Source: a bacterium
GTDB lineage: Bacteria; Pseudomonadota; Alphaproteobacteria; Rhodobacterales; Rhodobacteraceae
Reading direction: 5' to 3'
DNA length: 64,000 nucleotides
Assembly (NCBI GenBank): GCA_016124195.1
Contig: WGOE01000002.1
Span: forward strand, 434,001 to 498,000
Numbering within the stretch: position 1 is the stretch's first letter; each line of letters begins with the position of its first letter. Below are positions 1 to 58,858 of the stretch, piece by piece. The notes beneath the pieces are model-generated. The model saw only the letters and a program-made list of their open reading frames with translations, was not told where the DNA came from and made no database searches. The translations under genes and the position numbers were made by a program.

Positions 1-408
1 CGACCCGAAGGCGGCGGCGGCGGCGATCTCGCGGTCGGCCACGTCGAGCGGCACCGGCAGGGTCTGGGAAATCACGTAAAAGATTCCCTGCGCCTGAAAA
101 TCCAGATAGCTTTGCAGCGCGCCGGGGTTCATGCCGTAATGCAGGTCATTGCGTTCGGGCGCCTGACCGCCGGTCAGCTCCCACGAGCCGGCCGGGTCAA
201 AGAGGACGCGCTGGCTGCCGTTGATTATGAGTGCGCTGTGCGCGCCCGACCCGCTGCGCCCGTTGATCGAGGTGATCAGCGTGACGGATGCAGGCGGGCC
301 CGCGACATAGGTCGCGCGCGCCACATCGGCGTCGCTGGCCCATTTGTGATCGCCGCTGCACCCCGCAAGACAGGCGGCCGCGGCTAGGGCAAGAAGGCTG
401 CGCAGCAT
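1..408 (-). CDS. Putative lipoprotein, C-terminus cut by the window edge
   Basis: The reading frame is open from an ATG at 408 down to base 1 with no stop, so 136 codons are visible and the end lies outside the window. It begins with a short hydrophobic signal (LLALAAAACLAGC) whose LAGC lipobox would place the lipidated cysteine at about residue 19. The mature part is soluble-looking, with a segment around SGAHSALIINGSQRVLFDPAGS near residues 55-76. It looks like a conserved Rhodobacteraceae envelope lipoprotein, but I do not recognise a function. It runs the same way as the oxidase subunit gene upstream of it. Confidence 0.75.
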   Translation of the reverse strand, partial: MLRSLLALAAAACLAGCSGDHKWASDADVARATYVAGPPASVTLITSINGRSGSGAHSALIINGSQRVLFDPAGSWELTGGQAPERNDLHYGMNPGALQSYLDFQAQGIFYVISQTLPVPLDVADREIAAAAAFGS

Positions 409-42404: not shown

Positions 42405-43598
42405 TTAACCCTTCACCGCTTTGACAATCTTCTGCGCGCCATCCTTCAGGTCGTCGGCGGCGATGACATTCAGGCCGGATTTGCGGATGATATCCTTGCC
42501 CAGTTCCACGTTGGTGCCTTCAAGCCGCACCACCAGCGGGACCTTGAGGCCCACCTCCTTCACCGCGGCGATCACGCCCTCGGCGATGATGTCGCAGCGC
42601 ATGATGCCGCCGAAGATGTTGACGAGGATGCCTTTGACGTTGGGGTCGGAGGTGATGATCTTGAAGGCCTCGGTCACCTTTTCCTTGGTGGCGCCGCCGC
42701 CCACGTCGAGGAAGTTGGCGGGCTCGGCGCCGTAAAGCTTGATGATGTCCATCGTGGCCATCGCAAGGCCCGCGCCGTTCACCATGCAGCCGATCTCGCC
42801 ATCGAGTGCGATGTAGTTCAGGTCGAACTTCGAGGCGGCAAGCTCCTTGGGGTCCTCTTCCGTCTCATCCCTGAGGGCCGCGATTTCGGGGTGGCGGAAC
42901 ATGGCGTTGCCGTCAAAGCTCATCTTGGCGTCCAGGAGCTTCAGCCCGCCGTCCTTCAGCACGACGAAGGGGTTGATCTCCAGCATGTCCATGTCTTTTT
43001 CGGTGAAGAGCCGGTAGAGGTTCTTCACGATGGCCACGCAGGACTTGACCTGCGCGCCCGACAGACCCAGCGCATAGGCGACACGGCGGCCGTGGAATTC
43101 GGAAAAGCCGGCGGCAGGGTCGATCGAGAAGGACAGGATCTTCTCGGGCGTCTCATGCGCCACGTCTTCGATGCTCATCCCGCCTTCGGTCGAACAGACG
43201 ATCGAGATGCGCGAGGTTTGCCGGTCGATCAGCAGGGCGAGGTAGAATTCCTTGGCGATGTCCGAACCGTCTTCGATGTAGATGCGGTTCACCTGCTTGC
43301 CATGCGGGCCGGTCTGCACGGTCACAAGGGTACGGCCCAGCATCTGACGGGTGAATTCGGCTGCCTCTTCGACCGAACGGGCAAGTCTCACGCCGCCCTT
43401 TTCACCAGCCTCAGGCTCGATGAAATGGCCCTTGCCGCGACCGCCGGCGTGGATTTGCGCTTTCACGACCCAGAGCGGACCGTCCAGTTCGCCCGCCGCA
43501 GACTTCGCCTCTTCTGCACGCGTCACGGCGCGCCCGTCAGAGACGGGAATGCCGTAGCTGCGCAGCAAGGCCTTGGCCTGATATTCGTGAATGTTCAT
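42405..43598 (-). CDS. sucC: Succinyl-CoA synthetase beta subunit
   Basis: The 397-residue ATP-grasp subunit opens [22 protein letters not shown] and contains [17 protein letters not shown] (nucleotide-binding) and [11 protein letters not shown]. The C-terminal SucC ligase domain includes [16 protein letters not shown]. It is the first gene of the sucCD-lipoprotein-sucAB operon. About 95 bp upstream lie two GTGATCAC palindromes 21 bp apart. Confidence 0.98.
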
Positions 43599-43693
43599 CT
43601 TGCGCCCCGTTCAGGTGGATTTGGGGGCGTGATGGCACAATTTGCAGAGGCGGCAAAACAGGAAACCGCCGGGTTTGCCGGAAAAGCGACATT

Positions 43694-43724
43694 TGTGATC
43701 ACACGAAAAAATTCTGTGATCACG
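43694..43724 (-). promoter_or_regulatory. Paired GTGATCAC operator upstream of sucC
   Basis: Two perfect 8-bp palindromes GTGATCAC lie at 43695-43702 and 43716-43723. The first is extended to TGTGATCACA. Start-to-start distance is 21 bp, two turns of B-DNA, which suits a dimer of dimers. The linker is AT-rich. The same arrangement occurs upstream of sdhC. Confidence 0.7.
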
Positions 43725-48370: not shown

Positions 48371-48578
48371 GGTCTGCCTTTCCGGGCGAGGCTGCGCCCT
48401 GACAGTGACGCCGATCCCCCGGCGACAGGCTCAGGCTGCGACCAAAGCGCCAAGATCGGGTTAACGGCGCGGCCGCGGGCCCGGGGCCGGACCGCGCTCG
48501 CTGCGGCGCGGCAAAATGGCTCTTGCGGAAAGTGGCGAAATGCTGCCACGTGACGCAACAAAATTGCTTGGTGGAATC

Positions 48579-49433
48579 ATGGAAAGCGTTCAACCCGTCC
48601 GGTCAGTGCTGTATATCCCGGCCTCCAAGCCGCGCGCGCTGGAAAAGGCGGCTGGGCTTGCGGCCGATGCGATCATCTTCGATCTGGAGGACGCGGTGGC
48701 GCCCGGCGAAAAGAGTGCCGCGCGCACCACGCTGGCCGAATGCCTTTCCGGGACCGATTATGGCGCAAGGCTGCGGCTGGTGCGGATCAACGCGCTCGAC
48801 ACGGCCTGGGGCCGGGCGGATGCGCTGGCCTTTGCCGGCCATCCCGGGGTGGACGGCATCGTGGTGCCCAAGGTGAATGGTCCGGCCGACCTGGCCTCGG
48901 TGGCGCTGATGGCGCCGGAAAAGCCGCTCTGGGCGATGATCGAGACGCCGATGGCCCTGTTGAACGCGGCGGCGATTGCGGGTCATGCGCGGCTTTGCGG
49001 CATGGTGATGGGGACCAACGATCTGGCCAAGGATCTGGGCGCGCGATATCGCGCCGACCGCCTGCCGCTGGCCGCGGGCCTTGGCCTTGCGGTGCTGGCG
49101 GCGCGGGCCCATCGGCGGCTGATCGTGGACGGCGTCTTCAACGCCTTTCGCGACGCGGCGGGGCTTGAGGCCGAATGCGAACAGGGCCGCGACATGGGCT
49201 TTGACGGCAAGACGCTGATCCATCCCGACCAGCTGGAGGTGGCCAACCGGGTCTTTGCGCCCTCGCCCGCCGAACTGAGCCTGGCCCACCGCCAGATCGA
49301 GGCATTCGAGGCAGCGACCGCCGCGGGGCAGGGCGTTGCAGTTCTGGATGGAAAGATCGTCGAGAACCTGCATATCGTTACGGCGCGCGCCTTGATCGCC
49401 AAGGCCCGCGCCATCGCAGACAGGCAGGGGTGA
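48579..49433 (+). CDS. HpcH/HpaI-family CoA ester lyase, probably (3S)-malyl-CoA thioesterase
   Basis: This 284-residue TIM-barrel enzyme has the magnesium-binding FDLEDAVAPGEK near residue 33, the base region WAMIETPMALLNA near 128 and MGFDGKTLIHPDQLEVAN near 205. Length and position beside mesaconyl-CoA hydratase and sdh match the Mcl2 thioesterase of the Rhodobacter sphaeroides ethylmalonyl-CoA pathway, which hydrolyses (S)-malyl-CoA to malate. A malyl-CoA lyase or citrate lyase beta activity is the alternative. ATG 48579 is preferred over the upstream frame opening at 48516. Confidence 0.78.
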   Translation: MESVQPVRSVLYIPASKPRALEKAAGLAADAIIFDLEDAVAPGEKSAARTTLAECLSGTDYGARLRLVRINALDTAWGRADALAFAGHPGVDGIVVPKVNGPADLASVALMAPEKPLWAMIETPMALLNAAAIAGHARLCGMVMGTNDLAKDLGARYRADRLPLAAGLGLAVLAARAHRRLIVDGVFNAFRDAAGLEAECEQGRDMGFDGKTLIHPDQLEVANRVFAPSPAELSLAHRQIEAFEAATAAGQGVAVLDGKIVENLHIVTARALIAKARAIADRQG

Positions 49434-50251: not shown

Positions 50252-51280
50252 ATGAAAACCAATGCGGGGCGCTTTTTCGAGGATTACCGGCTGGGCGAGG
50301 TGATCGCCCATGCCGTGCCGCGCACCCTGTCGGGCGGTGAGCGGGCGCTCTACCACGCGCTTTATCCGGCGCGCGGGGCGCTTTATTCGTCGGACGCCTT
50401 TGCGCGGGCTTGCGGGCTGGCGCAAAGCCCGATGGACGACCTGATCGCCTTTCACGCCGTGTTCGGCAAGACCGTGCCCGATGTCAGCCTGAACGCCGTG
50501 GCCAATCTGGGTTATGCCGAGGGGCGCTGGCTGGCGCCGGTCTGGCCGGGCGACACGCTGCGCGCCGAAAGCACGGTGATCGGCCTGAAGGAGAATTCCA
50601 ACGGCGCCTCGGGCGTGGTCTGGGTGCGCACGCGCGGGCTGAACCAGCATGGCCACACCGTGCTGGATTATGTGCGCTGGGTCATGGTCAAAAAGCTCGG
50701 CCACGGGCCTGCGCCCGAACCTGTGGTGCCCGATCTGGCCGCTTCGGTGGCCGCCGATCAACTTGTCATCCCGCAAGGGCTTGATTTCTCGCGCTACGAC
50801 TTCGCCCATGCGGGCGAAAGGCATCGGTGGGGAGACTACCGGATCGGCGAGACGATCGACCATGTCGATGGCGTCACGGTCGAAGAGGCCGAACACATGC
50901 TGGCGACCCGGCTTTGGCAGAACACGGCCAAGGTCCATTTCGACGCCACCCAGCGCCCTGATGGCAAGCGGCTGATCTATGGCGGCCATGTCCTCAGCCT
51001 CGCGCGGGCGCTGTCGTTCAACGGTCTGGCCAATGCGCAGATGCTGGTGGGGCTGAACGCCGGCACCCATGCCAACCCGTGTTTTGCCGGCGACACGGTG
51101 CGGGCCTGGAGCCAGGTGCTCGACCGGGCCGAGACCGCAGCACCCGGCGTGGGCGCCTTGCGGCTGCGGCTGGTCGCGGTCAGGGACGGCACACCGCCCT
51201 TCGAATTGCGCGATGCGGCCGGCAAATACCTGCCCGGCGTTCTGCTGGACCTGGATTATTGGGCGCTGGCGCCGCTTTAG
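50252..51280 (+). CDS. mch: Mesaconyl-C1-CoA hydratase (double hot-dog MaoC protein)
   Basis: The 342-residue protein is two MaoC hot-dog domains in tandem: LAQSPMDDLIAFHAVFGKTVPD in the first and FDATQRPDGKRLIYGGHVLSLAR in the second, the latter with the Asp/His hydratase pair. It hydrates mesaconyl-C1-CoA to beta-methylmalyl-CoA in the ethylmalonyl-CoA pathway for acetate assimilation. Placement between malyl-CoA thioesterase and sdhC matches R. sphaeroides. AAGGATC is its ribosome-binding site. Confidence 0.88.
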   Translation: MKTNAGRFFEDYRLGEVIAHAVPRTLSGGERALYHALYPARGALYSSDAFARACGLAQSPMDDLIAFHAVFGKTVPDVSLNAVANLGYAEGRWLAPVWPGDTLRAESTVIGLKENSNGASGVVWVRTRGLNQHGHTVLDYVRWVMVKKLGHGPAPEPVVPDLAASVAADQLVIPQGLDFSRYDFAHAGERHRWGDYRIGETIDHVDGVTVEEAEHMLATRLWQNTAKVHFDATQRPDGKRLIYGGHVLSLARALSFNGLANAQMLVGLNAGTHANPCFAGDTVRAWSQVLDRAETAAPGVGALRLRLVAVRDGTPPFELRDAAGKYLPGVLLDLDYWALAPL

Positions 51281-51288
51281 ACGAGAAT

Positions 51289-51298
51289 TGTGATCACA
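51289..51298. promoter_or_regulatory. Single TGTGATCACA palindrome after mch
   Basis: A perfect 10-bp palindrome begins nine bases past the mch stop and 270 bp upstream of the paired sites before sdhC. It may be an auxiliary site for the same regulator. Confidence 0.5.
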
Positions 51299-51558: not shown

Positions 51559-51589
51559 TGTGATCACGAAATTTATTTCAGTGATCACA
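51559..51589 (+). promoter_or_regulatory. Paired GTGATCAC operator upstream of sdhC
   Basis: Perfect palindromes GTGATCAC lie at 51560-51567 and 51581-51588, start-to-start 21 bp, the same spacing as upstream of sucC. The flanks are TGTGATCACG and AGTGATCACA with an AT-rich linker. They lie about 155 bp before the sdhC start. Confidence 0.72.
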
Positions 51590-51598
51590 AAGTGAAAA

Positions 51599-51742
51599 AT
51601 CTTGCACCGATCCGGGCGACTGGTCGGTTTTGCCGCAGCTTGGGGGCGTGACAGCGCAAATTTGGGCGCTATTGAAAGACCAAGGCAACTCTGCGCCGCA
51701 GCAAGGCTGGGGCAGCATTTCGACAACGGGGAAGGGCAAACC
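51599..51742 (+). other. Leader region of the sdh operon
   Basis: No gene is seen here. TTGGGGGCGTGA at 51640-51651 matches 43621-43632 in the sucC leader, but in the opposite orientation relative to transcription. AGCGC and GCGCT at 51653-51657 and 51666-51670 could form a small stem. No confident -10/-35 pair is visible. Confidence 0.4.
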
Positions 51743-52153
51743 ATGGCCGAGACAACGGGGTCTGCAAAACGGGTCGATCGGCCACACGAACGACCCTTGT
51801 CGCCGCATATCCAGATCTACAACATGTACCAGATCAACTCGGTCTCCTCGATCCTGACGCGGATCACCGGGCATGCGCTGATGGCGGGGGTGATCCTCGG
51901 CGTCTGGTGGCTGCTGGCCGCCGCCGTCTCGGACCGCTATTTCGCCGTGGCCAATGCGGTGGTGACCTCGTGGTTCGGCAAGCTGGTCTTCACGGGTTCG
52001 CTCTGGTCTGTGTGGTATCACTATCTTGCCGGCCTGCGGCATCTGTACTTTGACGCGGGCCACGGGCTCGAGATGCAGATGGCCGAGCGTCTGGGCTGGG
52101 CCTGCGTCATCGGATCGGTCCTTTTGACCCTACTGACCATCGCCATCGTATGA
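51743..52153 (+). CDS. sdhC: Succinate dehydrogenase cytochrome b556 subunit
   Basis: The 136-residue membrane anchor begins with [10 protein letters not shown] and has three helices. [20 protein letters not shown] near residue 95 carries the haem-ligand histidine region of SdhC. It binds ubiquinone and haem b with SdhD in the inner membrane. First gene of the sdh operon; its stop overlaps or abuts sdhD. Confidence 0.96.
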
Positions 52154-56205: not shown

Positions 56206-56829
56206 TTGGCGGCGCTGATCCTCGCCGGTCTGACGCTGACCTGCCTTGGCATCTTCGGCTGGCTCTGGCTATGCGGCGGGGCCGGTCAGGCGGGTTGGCG
56301 CGGGTTTGTCGGCAAGCAGGCGGTCCAGTTGTCCGGCGTCTGTCTGGCCCTGGGGCTGGTGACCGGCCATCCGATCAACGGGGTCTTCATGGCCAGCTTC
56401 CCGCCGCTCGCCCTGGGTGAGGTGGCCAGGGCCCGCCCCTTCGCACCCTTCCTGGCCGAGGTGGCCTGGCACCTGGCGCCCTTTGCCGGCGCGGCCCTGC
56501 TGGTCAGCCTCATCCTGCCGCCCCTGCGGGTCTGGAGCCTCGGTGTCACGCTTCTGGCTGCGCTGGCGGCATCGCTCTGGGTCGGGGATCAGGTCAGCCG
56601 GGACGCGATGTGCCGCGCCGCCCTCAAACGCGGCTTTGCCGGGTTCGAGCGCAACAGCTTTGCCTATAGCCTGGCCAACACCCGTGGCGACCCGGTTTAT
56701 GACAGCCCGCACGCCGTGGCCCGCGCCGCCGGCCAGACCTTGGGGTGGAGCTACCGCGACATGGACTGGTTCGTCCTGCCCCGGGGCATCGCCGGGTCCG
56801 AACCCGCCTTCACTTGCGCCAAGGCCTAA
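56206..56829 (+). CDS. Hypothetical membrane protein after sdhB
   Basis: The product of 207 residues has about four helices (LILAGLTLTCLGIFGWLWLC, LSGVCLALGLVTG, LAPFAGAALLVSLILPPL and LGVTLLAALAASLWVG) and a soluble C-terminus of about 80 residues. The frame has no ATG near its start; TTG 56206, four bases after sdhB, is the best candidate and its ribosome-binding site is weak. I do not recognise the family. Its stop overlaps the convergent LuxR-domain gene. Confidence 0.65.
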   Translation: MAALILAGLTLTCLGIFGWLWLCGGAGQAGWRGFVGKQAVQLSGVCLALGLVTGHPINGVFMASFPPLALGEVARARPFAPFLAEVAWHLAPFAGAALLVSLILPPLRVWSLGVTLLAALAASLWVGDQVSRDAMCRAALKRGFAGFERNSFAYSLANTRGDPVYDSPHAVARAAGQTLGWSYRDMDWFVLPRGIAGSEPAFTCAKA

Positions 56830-57302
56830 AGGTGGCGCAGCTTGTCCTGCACCTTCTTCGGGAAATCGTCGAAATGGGTGGTCAGATCATGAATCCCATT
56901 CACAATCCCTTCGATCTCGGCGACCTCCTCCAGGCTGTGCGCCCGGGTCGAACGGGTCAGCCCGCCGATGGTGCGCGAATTGACAGGGCCCACCGCATAG
57001 GTCCAGCCATGCGTGAGCCCAAAGGAATTGGCCGCGGCGATCACGCCTTCCGGGTCTTCGCCGGTCAGGCTGTCCCACATGACGCGGCCCGTGTTGGTCA
57101 GCCCCCAGCGCACCACGGGATCGAACAGCATGAAGCCCTTGATCGTGTAGTGGTCGGCCCAGGCCTGCGAATAGGTCTGGTACAGCAAGGTCGGAGCGGC
57201 CATGCGCAGATGCACCGCCAAGGCGTATCCCGTGTCGCACATCTCCCCAAGCCTGTTCAAATGCTTGGCAATCTGTGTTGGAATATCTTCGTAGTCTGCC
57301 AA
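56826..57302 (-). CDS. LuxR-type autoinducer-binding domain protein without DNA-binding domain
   Basis: The 158-residue protein aligns by eye with the N-terminal ligand-binding domain of LuxR/TraR regulators: Trp and Tyr of the acyl-homoserine-lactone pocket in AWADHYTIKG and the Asp-Pro in FMLFDPVVRWG. AAANSFGLTHGW follows. It stops before any helix-turn-helix, and the adjoining DNA encodes another gene, so there is no HTH remnant. The best start is TTG 57302, with AGGTGAG upstream. It is divergent from a complete luxR-luxI pair and may bind or buffer the signal, or form inactive dimers with LuxR. Confidence 0.8.
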   Translation of the reverse strand: MADYEDIPTQIAKHLNRLGEMCDTGYALAVHLRMAAPTLLYQTYSQAWADHYTIKGFMLFDPVVRWGLTNTGRVMWDSLTGEDPEGVIAAANSFGLTHGWTYAVGPVNSRTIGGLTRSTRAHSLEEVAEIEGIVNGIHDLTTHFDDFPKKVQDKLRHL

Positions 57303-57413
57303 GATTCTCACCTTTGGGATGCTTGGTGTTGCATGAGACACGTGGACCGTGCATTGGTTAACGTGGGCGAAACTACGGTGGCGGTACGGGTTACTCAACC
57401 TGTTTAAAAGTAG

Positions 57414-58025
57414 ATGGTAATCCAGCAAACCATGCGAGACCAGATTGAACAGATCGCACCGGCCGGCTTCTACGTGGCGCTGAGGGTCGGATTCTCATTC
57501 CCTGAGGAAGAATACAACGAACTTCCTCCGAATTGGGTAGAATTCTACACCACTCATGGACTGGTCGTCCATGACCCCGCCATGAAGTGGGTCTATGGCA
57601 ACACAGGCGTCGTGCGGATCAACGATATCGGCCTGCCCGACCCGCATCAGGTCCGGGCGCGGGCCGCGATCTTTGGCCTGTCGCATGGCGCCGCGGTTTC
57701 GGTCATGACGCCGGCGGACCGCGGTCGGCGCAGTTACGGGCTGTTCTTTCGCGCCGCCACCGATTTTGCCGAACCCGACCTGACCACGCTGCACGGCATC
57801 CTCAAGCGCCTGCACATCGGCGAAAGCGACGAACCCAGCCTGACCGCCGCCGAAATCGAGGCGCTTCAGATGCAGGCCGCCGGCTTGCGGCTCAAGCAGA
57901 TCGCCGGCGAACTGAACATTTCCGAAAGCGCCGTGAAGGCGCGCCTTAATAATGCCAAGAAGAAATTGGGTGCCAAGACGCTGACCCAGGCGTCCTCCAT
58001 CGCGGCAGCCCGCCGCATAATCTGA
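57414..58025 (+). CDS. LuxR family quorum-sensing regulator
   Basis: The 203-residue regulator has an autoinducer-binding domain with pocket residues in NWVEFYTTHGLVVHDPAMKW and IFGLSHGAAVSV. The C-terminal LuxR helix-turn-helix is LTAAEIEALQMQAAGLRLKQIAGELNISESAVKARLNNAKKKLGAKT. It should bind an acyl-homoserine lactone made by the adjacent synthase and control target promoters. ATG 57414 has only a weak ribosome-binding site; ATG 57432 is the alternative. Lower GC at the 5' end than its neighbours. Confidence 0.92.
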   Translation: MVIQQTMRDQIEQIAPAGFYVALRVGFSFPEEEYNELPPNWVEFYTTHGLVVHDPAMKWVYGNTGVVRINDIGLPDPHQVRARAAIFGLSHGAAVSVMTPADRGRRSYGLFFRAATDFAEPDLTTLHGILKRLHIGESDEPSLTAAEIEALQMQAAGLRLKQIAGELNISESAVKARLNNAKKKLGAKTLTQASSIAAARRII

Positions 58026-58095
58026 CAGATAATTCAGCCCCTTTGGCAACACTCGGAAAACTTCCACCGAGGGTAACTTTTTGCCTAGTTGACAC

Positions 58096-58109
58096 AACCT
58101 CAGGAGGTT
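58096..58109. promoter_or_regulatory. Candidate lux box upstream of luxI
   Basis: AACCTC (58096-58101) and GAGGTT (58104-58109) form an inverted repeat with a two-base centre, right after a TTGACA hexamer at 58089-58094. A related half-site AACCTGTTT lies at 57398-57406 before luxR. The -10 is not clear, as expected for an activator-dependent promoter. Confidence 0.5.
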
Positions 58110-58153
58110 TAGAACTGAACTTACTCTAAACACTGTTGTCTTGGGGGACACAT

Positions 58154-58858
58154 ATGGAAAACGTTCGGTTCGACTTCTCTGACCTGCACCGCCATGGCCG
58201 TGCCTTTTATGAGTTTTTAGCCCTCCGCAAGCAGGTTTTCGTCGATGAATTGAAGTGGGACGTGCCTCACAATGATTCGGTCGAGATGGACCAGTACGAC
58301 ACGCCGATGGCTCATTACTCCATCGTGTTGCATGAAGGCCGGGTGATCGGCGGGGCCCGCGCGATGGCCACGACAGCGACCTGGGGCGAACACACCTACA
58401 TGTTGCGCGACGCCTATTCGGGCAAGCTCAAGCATATCCCGCCGCATATCATGTCGGTGGACATCGCCTCGCCCAAGGTCTGGGAATGCACCCGGCTGGT
58501 CATCGCCAGCAACATCGCCACCCAGGCCGAGCGCGCCGAATGCATGCGCCTCATCGTGGATGGCCTGGTCGAGACCGTGCAGCGTCACGGCGCGGAAGAG
58601 ATGATCTGCCTGTCCTCGCTGCATCTGATGCGGGCGCTGCGCCAGTTGGGCTACAAGGTCGATCGTCTGGGAGAGACCTACCAGAACGGCGAGGATGGCC
58701 GCACCTATGGCGTGTTGCGGATGCCGGCGGAGTATTCGAACGCGCGCAAGGCGCTGATGCGGTCCTATCCGGCCATGCCGCTGGCCTCTGTCGCGCGTCC
58801 GCGCATCGAACTGCCGCTCGTGGCTCCGGTCGCGGCCGGTCTTTCGGCCGTCATGTGA
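58154..58858 (+). CDS. Acyl-homoserine-lactone synthase (LuxI family)
   Basis: The 234-residue enzyme makes the diffusible signal from SAM and an acyl carrier. LuxI landmarks are LRKQVFVDELKWDVP (invariant Arg, Phe, Trp), EMDQYDTPMAHYSIV, VIGGARAMATT (Arg) and VWECTRLVI, the counterpart of the ELSR motif. It is about 30 residues longer than typical LuxI, with an extra C-terminal tail. GGGGGA precedes ATG 58154. The gene follows luxR by 128 bp. Confidence 0.92.
   Translation: MENVRFDFSDLHRHGRAFYEFLALRKQVFVDELKWDVPHNDSVEMDQYDTPMAHYSIVLHEGRVIGGARAMATTATWGEHTYMLRDAYSGKLKHIPPHIMSVDIASPKVWECTRLVIASNIATQAERAECMRLIVDGLVETVQRHGAEEMICLSSLHLMRALRQLGYKVDRLGETYQNGEDGRTYGVLRMPAEYSNARKALMRSYPAMPLASVARPRIELPLVAPVAAGLSAVM

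Follow-up and report, generated by a model that had tools for sequence, protein, structure and literature searches.

What protein reads the two identical pairs of palindromes that stand before sucC and sdhC in this stretch of rhodobacterial DNA, and to what effect? Within the window, by which we mean the whole 64,000-nucleotide stretch analysed, the palindrome GTGATCAC begins at 43695, 43716, 51560 and 51581, and these 4 copies form 2 exact pairs at a 21-bp spacing, just as the preliminary description had claimed. The putative sucC operator, on the minus strand, is made up of a proximal palindrome (43695..43702), an AT-rich 13-bp linker (43703..43715) and a distal palindrome (43716..43723), the last being its upstream half because sucC is itself on the minus strand. 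That gene (42405..43598; NCBIfam, succinate-CoA ligase beta) heads the order sucC-sucD-(small ORF)-sucA-sucB. The putative sdhC operator has the same build on the plus strand, with its distal palindrome at 51560..51567, an AT-rich 13-bp linker at 51568..51580 and its proximal palindrome at 51581..51588, and is followed by sdhC (51743..52153, plus strand; NCBIfam, succinate dehydrogenase cytochrome b556 subunit), the head of the sdh operon. NCBIfam names sucC, sucD, sucA and sucB behind one pair and sdhC, sdhA and sdhB behind the other, with the second sdh membrane subunit recognised by Pfam Sdh_cyt. When the entire genome of 4,256,655 bases was scanned for GTGATCAC-N13-GTGATCAC, the check that had been proposed earlier, only these 2 exact pairs were returned, both before TCA operons, and the reversed-pattern control gave 0. 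Shuffling the window produced an exact pair in 0 of 100 trials, against 2 pairs with 13-bp linkers in the real sequence.

The window also holds 2 lone copies of GTGATCAC, at 51290 and 62660, which the preliminary description did not list. The first (51290-51297) shares its intergenic region with the sdhC pair, which begins 270 bp further on; in 8 sdhC-side regions from the genus, no comparable copy turned up within 500 bp of the pair. Upstream of sdhC there is also a mesaconyl-CoA hydratase-like gene (50252-51280), and nearby a gene for an HpcH/HpaI-type lyase (48546-49433).

Absence of the pair from close relatives, named in the preliminary description as the outcome that would speak against it, did not occur: 15 of the 16 genomes of the genus, this one counted, carry the exact pair. 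At the level of the family, where 199 genomes from 198 genera were sampled, the exact 21-bp pair is present in 165 and its reversed control, as in the genus, in 0, and the pair is therefore not a chance occurrence. Two pairs per genome is the usual number (113 of the 165), with one in 49 and three in 3. Outside the family the pair is rare; a class-wide draw of 289 genomes yielded 6 that have it, comprising 4 of 5 from the same family and 2 of 284 from other families. A reading in which no protein binds the pair, making it a product of chance or of DNA structure, found no support and has next to no probability. The empty window shuffles and the linkers tell against it as well, since most linker positions vary between pairs, and do so between palindromes that are exact, as the search design makes them. 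In the 79 pairs of the 21-bp register used for composition, the positions flanking each palindrome favour T before it and A after it, and AT letters prevail midway along the linker.

The palindrome is already associated with a named protein. A passage of PMC6365646 reports that AkgR, a Rhodobacter sphaeroides activator, has GTGATCAC among its sites, and the earlier remark that no named regulator was known was, for the palindrome, mistaken. Passages of PMC4344238 predict that RSP_0981, a GntR-family protein of R. sphaeroides, controls succinyl-CoA synthetase, 2-oxoglutarate dehydrogenase and succinate dehydrogenase. Our genome has 29 GntR-domain matches at E <= 0.001, with 0 of them in the window. 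We take AkgR to be RSP_0981, which fits the passages of both papers together; with that, the known system shares the GTGATCAC site, the GntR family and the suc, OGDH and SDH targets with what is seen here. Very probably, then, the paired palindromes serve as operators for AkgR, an activator of the GntR family and FCD subfamily whose candidate gene lies in another part of the genome (G000:C2:175556-176218), a reading that includes the two-dimer mode of activation set out below.

The candidate gene has both a PF00392 (GntR) and a PF07729 (FCD) domain, and its product is 76.5% identical to that of a GntR gene lying 0.75 kb beyond sdhB in another genome (G061), whose closest named match is from Cereibacter ovatus (95%); the next GntR protein of our own genome reaches 37.5%. 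An akgR-type gene is likewise found 1.9 kb from sdhB in Fertoeibacter niger and 2.5 kb from it in Rhodobacter sp. SW2, in agreement with the numbering RSP_0974-6 and RSP_0981, whereas our candidate is on a different contig from the sdh operon and sdhB is absent from the 10 kb examined in many other akgR loci. Motif, family and synteny fit orthology of the candidate to RSP_0981. By sequence, its best match of solved structure is McbR (YncC), an E. coli GntR/FCD protein of different function (PDB 4p9f, residues 27-210, E 8e-20). Many FCD domains carry the canonical metal ligands D-x3-H, H, H. At positions assigned by eye, N142, H146, H189 and D211 are each conserved across 110 aligned sequences at a level of at least 98%, and two of the canonical ligand letters seem to differ. 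No autoregulatory GTGATCAC is present in the 3.2 kb around our akgR.

Could another protein be the reader, for instance the LacI-type CceR or a member of the CRP/FNR type? We judge this very improbable. In its favour, RSP_1663 (CceR) is predicted in passages of PMC4344238 to control sdh in R. sphaeroides, and the distribution comparison given below covers AkgR alone among regulators. However, the motif predicted for CceR, [A/G/T]GTT-N6-8-AAC[A/C/T] (PMC4344238), does not appear on reading through the two 29-bp pairs, and SDH and OGDH are reported in PMC11323563 to be outside the CceR regulon of Paracoccus denitrificans, which leaves room for another regulator. A single GntR/FadR- or LacI-class regulator over suc and sdh had been proposed earlier; the GntR half of that proposal fits the motif, the family and the AkgR co-occurrence, and the LacI half is not supported, the motif predicted for CceR being a different one. 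CRP half-sites require a 6-bp spacer, which counts against a CRP/FNR-type reader, and the presence of the pair tracks AkgR across the family genomes.

This last point deserves numbers. With a match at E <= 1e-45 taken as presence, AkgR was found in 180 of the same 199 family genomes, and the exact 21-bp pair in 163 of those 180 versus 2 of the 19 without a match (Fisher 2e-13). When the 34 pair-less genomes were searched with two mismatches allowed, most gave many matches each (the reversed control, among the matches listed, gave 1-2 in three genomes), and this search was replaced by a gene-anchored look at sucC and sdhC, the only setting in which spacings other than 12 and 13 were scanned. 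Upstream DNA of sucC was readable in 27 of the 34. All 11 of these that have AkgR also have a pair at sucC, 10 of them exact at 20 bp and one (G050) matching at 15/16 at 21 bp; in the 16 without AkgR, G064 included, no spacing between 8 and 44 bp scored above 13/16. On the sdhC side the 14 AkgR genomes of this set divide into 7 with 15-16/16, 1 with 14/16 and 6 with no pair, and none of 15 genomes without AkgR exceeded 13/16.

Counting these relaxed matches, at least one pair accompanies AkgR in 176 of 179 genomes versus 2 of 20 without it (Fisher 1.4e-20; the genomes are not independent), a tally whose criteria were loosened after the data had been seen, in which G050 and G205 count by 15/16 only and G071, G153 and G192 enter as pair-less though undetermined. 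G064 was moved to the no-AkgR group after its result had been seen, its match standing at 4.3e-47 versus 1e-78 or better for the other best matches. The discordant genomes are few: G033 and G119 have a pair and no AkgR match and are fragmented assemblies, G192 has AkgR and no sdhC pair and its sucC region is truncated, and in G071 and G153 neither sucC nor sdhC was found. The same two genes were not found in G120 and G166, which have no AkgR and in which the 20-bp register was outside coverage. On a midpoint-rooted tree of a single protein, SucC, from 63 genomes enriched for pair-less ones, parsimony requires 8 changes of AkgR state, or 9 with G033 and G119 included, versus a shuffled mean of 15.9 and minimum of 11. 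The states are thus clustered on the tree, and for this reason the genomes cannot be treated as independent; even so, the joint absence of AkgR and pair is, by these sequences, not a single event.

How might AkgR act from such a site? For position relative to the genes, 93 pooled pairs were assigned, comprising 58 sucC rows (56 loci) and 35 sdhC pairs; 5 unassigned pairs were left out (L030, L033, L091, L044 and L045, with L033 and L091 representing one site in G171). All 93 lie 83-167 bp before a predicted start codon. Before sdhC, GTGAC[AT] recurs in 32 of 35 promoters, compared with a mean of 0.8 and a largest value of 5 in 200 Markov runs, and by a two-block fit a TA-rich block follows it at 16 bp in 28 of 35. 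By anchoring on GTGAC[AT] and by the two-block search, the putative sdhC -35 in the window is GTGACA at 51648..51653 (plus strand), +60 after the pair, and the putative -10, beyond a 16-bp spacer, is TATTGA at 51670..51675 (plus strand). The palindrome centres would therefore fall near -97 and -118.

The distance is kept widely. A composite of the pair and GTGACW at +53 to +83 occurs in 195 of the 295 family genomes searched, many of them shared with the 35 pooled sdhC promoters; three genomes are listed twice, and thus at least 3 composite matches may be chance matches on the sucC side. Of 150 matches among those listed, 132 have cGTGAC[AT] starting +56 to +62 beyond the pair, and the other 18 are at +70 to +72 (8), +78 to +83 (8) and +67 (2), so that 16 of these 18 are displaced by roughly one or two helical turns. 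Closeness of the listed matches to a 10.5-bp lattice was reached by 0 of 20,000 uniform draws, though the period of the displaced promoters is only loosely fixed, with a resultant of 0.54-0.58 across 9.5-11.5 bp. This near-fixed distance between pair and promoter at sdhC suggests two same-face dimers that activate RNA polymerase.

The picture at sucC is less sharp. Candidate core-promoter blocks of weak consensus, TCCTGTTT and TGTGCCAT separated by 16 bp, were fitted by a two-block search to 43632..43663 (minus strand), with block 1 at +32 after the pair. Such blocks are tentatively placed in 51 of 55 promoters, at +31..34 (17) or +41..44 (34), one turn apart, and the +32 group is mostly from the window's own genus. 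When the DNA from pair to start codon was scanned for generic sigma-70 promoters, the real sequences did not clearly exceed Markov shuffles, the mean scores being 7.07 versus 6.95 shuffled for sucC and 7.17 versus 6.92 for sdhC.

These distances also bear on the sign of control. Many GntR/FCD proteins are repressors, and AkgR could in principle bind the pair and repress, its upstream dimers looping or blocking the promoter until an effector releases them. We consider this improbable, since about 59 bp separate the end of the pair from the putative sdhC -35, leaving the pair outside the usual footprint of polymerase and mostly at a near-fixed distance, and since AkgR is termed an activator in the passage of PMC6365646. 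It is from the wording of that citing paper that activation by AkgR is inferred.

Activation by AkgR, then, could proceed as follows. One AkgR dimer would occupy each GTGATCAC; with two helical turns between the sites, both dimers would face the same side of the DNA and might contact each other across the AT-rich linker; and, stationed near -97 and -118 at sdhC, they would touch RNA polymerase on the same face, raising expression of the operons for the steps from 2-oxoglutarate to fumarate. The cooperative dimer of dimers envisaged in the preliminary description agrees with the two-turn spacing, and the two-dimer arrangement itself is the conjectural part. What can be read from the DNA itself comprises the exact dyads, their conservation, the 20/21-bp register, the near-fixed distance to a promoter-like element and the co-occurrence with AkgR. 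The scheme resembles class I activation, as by CRP, in which the activator binds upstream, on the face that RNA polymerase occupies, and its site can be moved by whole turns; here, in contrast, there would be two GntR-type dimers on a near-invariant operator, and the polymerase contact is conjecture.

For R. sphaeroides the regulator and the palindrome are already in print, and the targets as a prediction, in the passages cited above. The AkgR literature passages searched, among which the primary AkgR paper was outside coverage, did not contain the 20/21-bp pair, the triple arrays, the promoter phasing or a fumC target, and TGTGATCACA returned no literature match. The newer part is hence the strict spacing within the pair and from pair to promoter, for which no claim of first description is made. 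A parallel in those passages is PS417_07240, a regulator of the deoxyribonate cluster of Pseudomonas simiae with 32% identity to AkgR and a conserved GTGATCAC (PMC6365646), but the site reported there is one palindrome, at -47 to -40 from the start codon, and the pathway is another. The value of the pair is that it links a named activator with little literature coverage to a paired operator of striking conservation and provides a natural experiment on the helical phasing of activator versus RNA polymerase. It would also be usable within the family to mark genomes with this kind of TCA-cycle control, with clear mutants to test.

The array is extended in some genomes. Runs of three GTGATCAC copies at 21-bp steps are found at L246:19903-19952, L256:20188-20263, G136:C8:374318-374367 and G184:C11:327609-327658. 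Those of Pseudotabrizicola sediminis and a Gemmobacter nectariphilus MAG precede sucC, those of G136 and G184 appear as overlapping pairs, and L256 has a fourth GTGATCAC 26 bp beyond the triple array. Other targets are seen as well. The third exact 21-bp pair of G052 (L030:1501-1529) is 150 bp before fumC, the next step of the TCA cycle; as a general target fumC was rejected, with a pair in 1 of 28 fumC upstream regions and a lone palindrome in one more. In G171 the pair (L091:6433-6461) has mdh on one side and, on the other, an ORF judged sucA-like by eye; the 20-kb locus gives no SucC match, and the operator seems to have remained with OGDH after the loss of sucC. It is somewhat more probable than otherwise that AkgR approximates a single-purpose switch, with mostly 1-2 full two-dimer operators per genome, a 20/21-bp register and promoter shifts of about whole turns, the platform being gone where AkgR is gone in several separate lineages, and some lineages adding a third palindrome or a fumC site or retaining the platform before sucA where sucC has been lost.

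Two genomes outside the family have the pair. That of G381 is inside an ORF, chance-like, and was set aside. In G338 (L044:992-1020) 7 bp separate the pair from the GntR/FCD gene that follows, taken at its longest ORF, whose product is only 27.8% identical to our AkgR candidate and 35.5% to another paralog of our genome; the paired operator is perhaps wider than TCA use. Neighbours of the G338 pair include a TonB-receptor-like and a dehydrogenase-like ORF, both named by eye.

Elsewhere in the window, at 57414-58858 and 56826-57428, Pfam identifies a LuxR-type regulator (autoinducer-binding and GerE domains) followed by a LuxI-type synthase (Autoind_synth), together with a divergent protein that has the Pfam autoinducer-binding domain alone.
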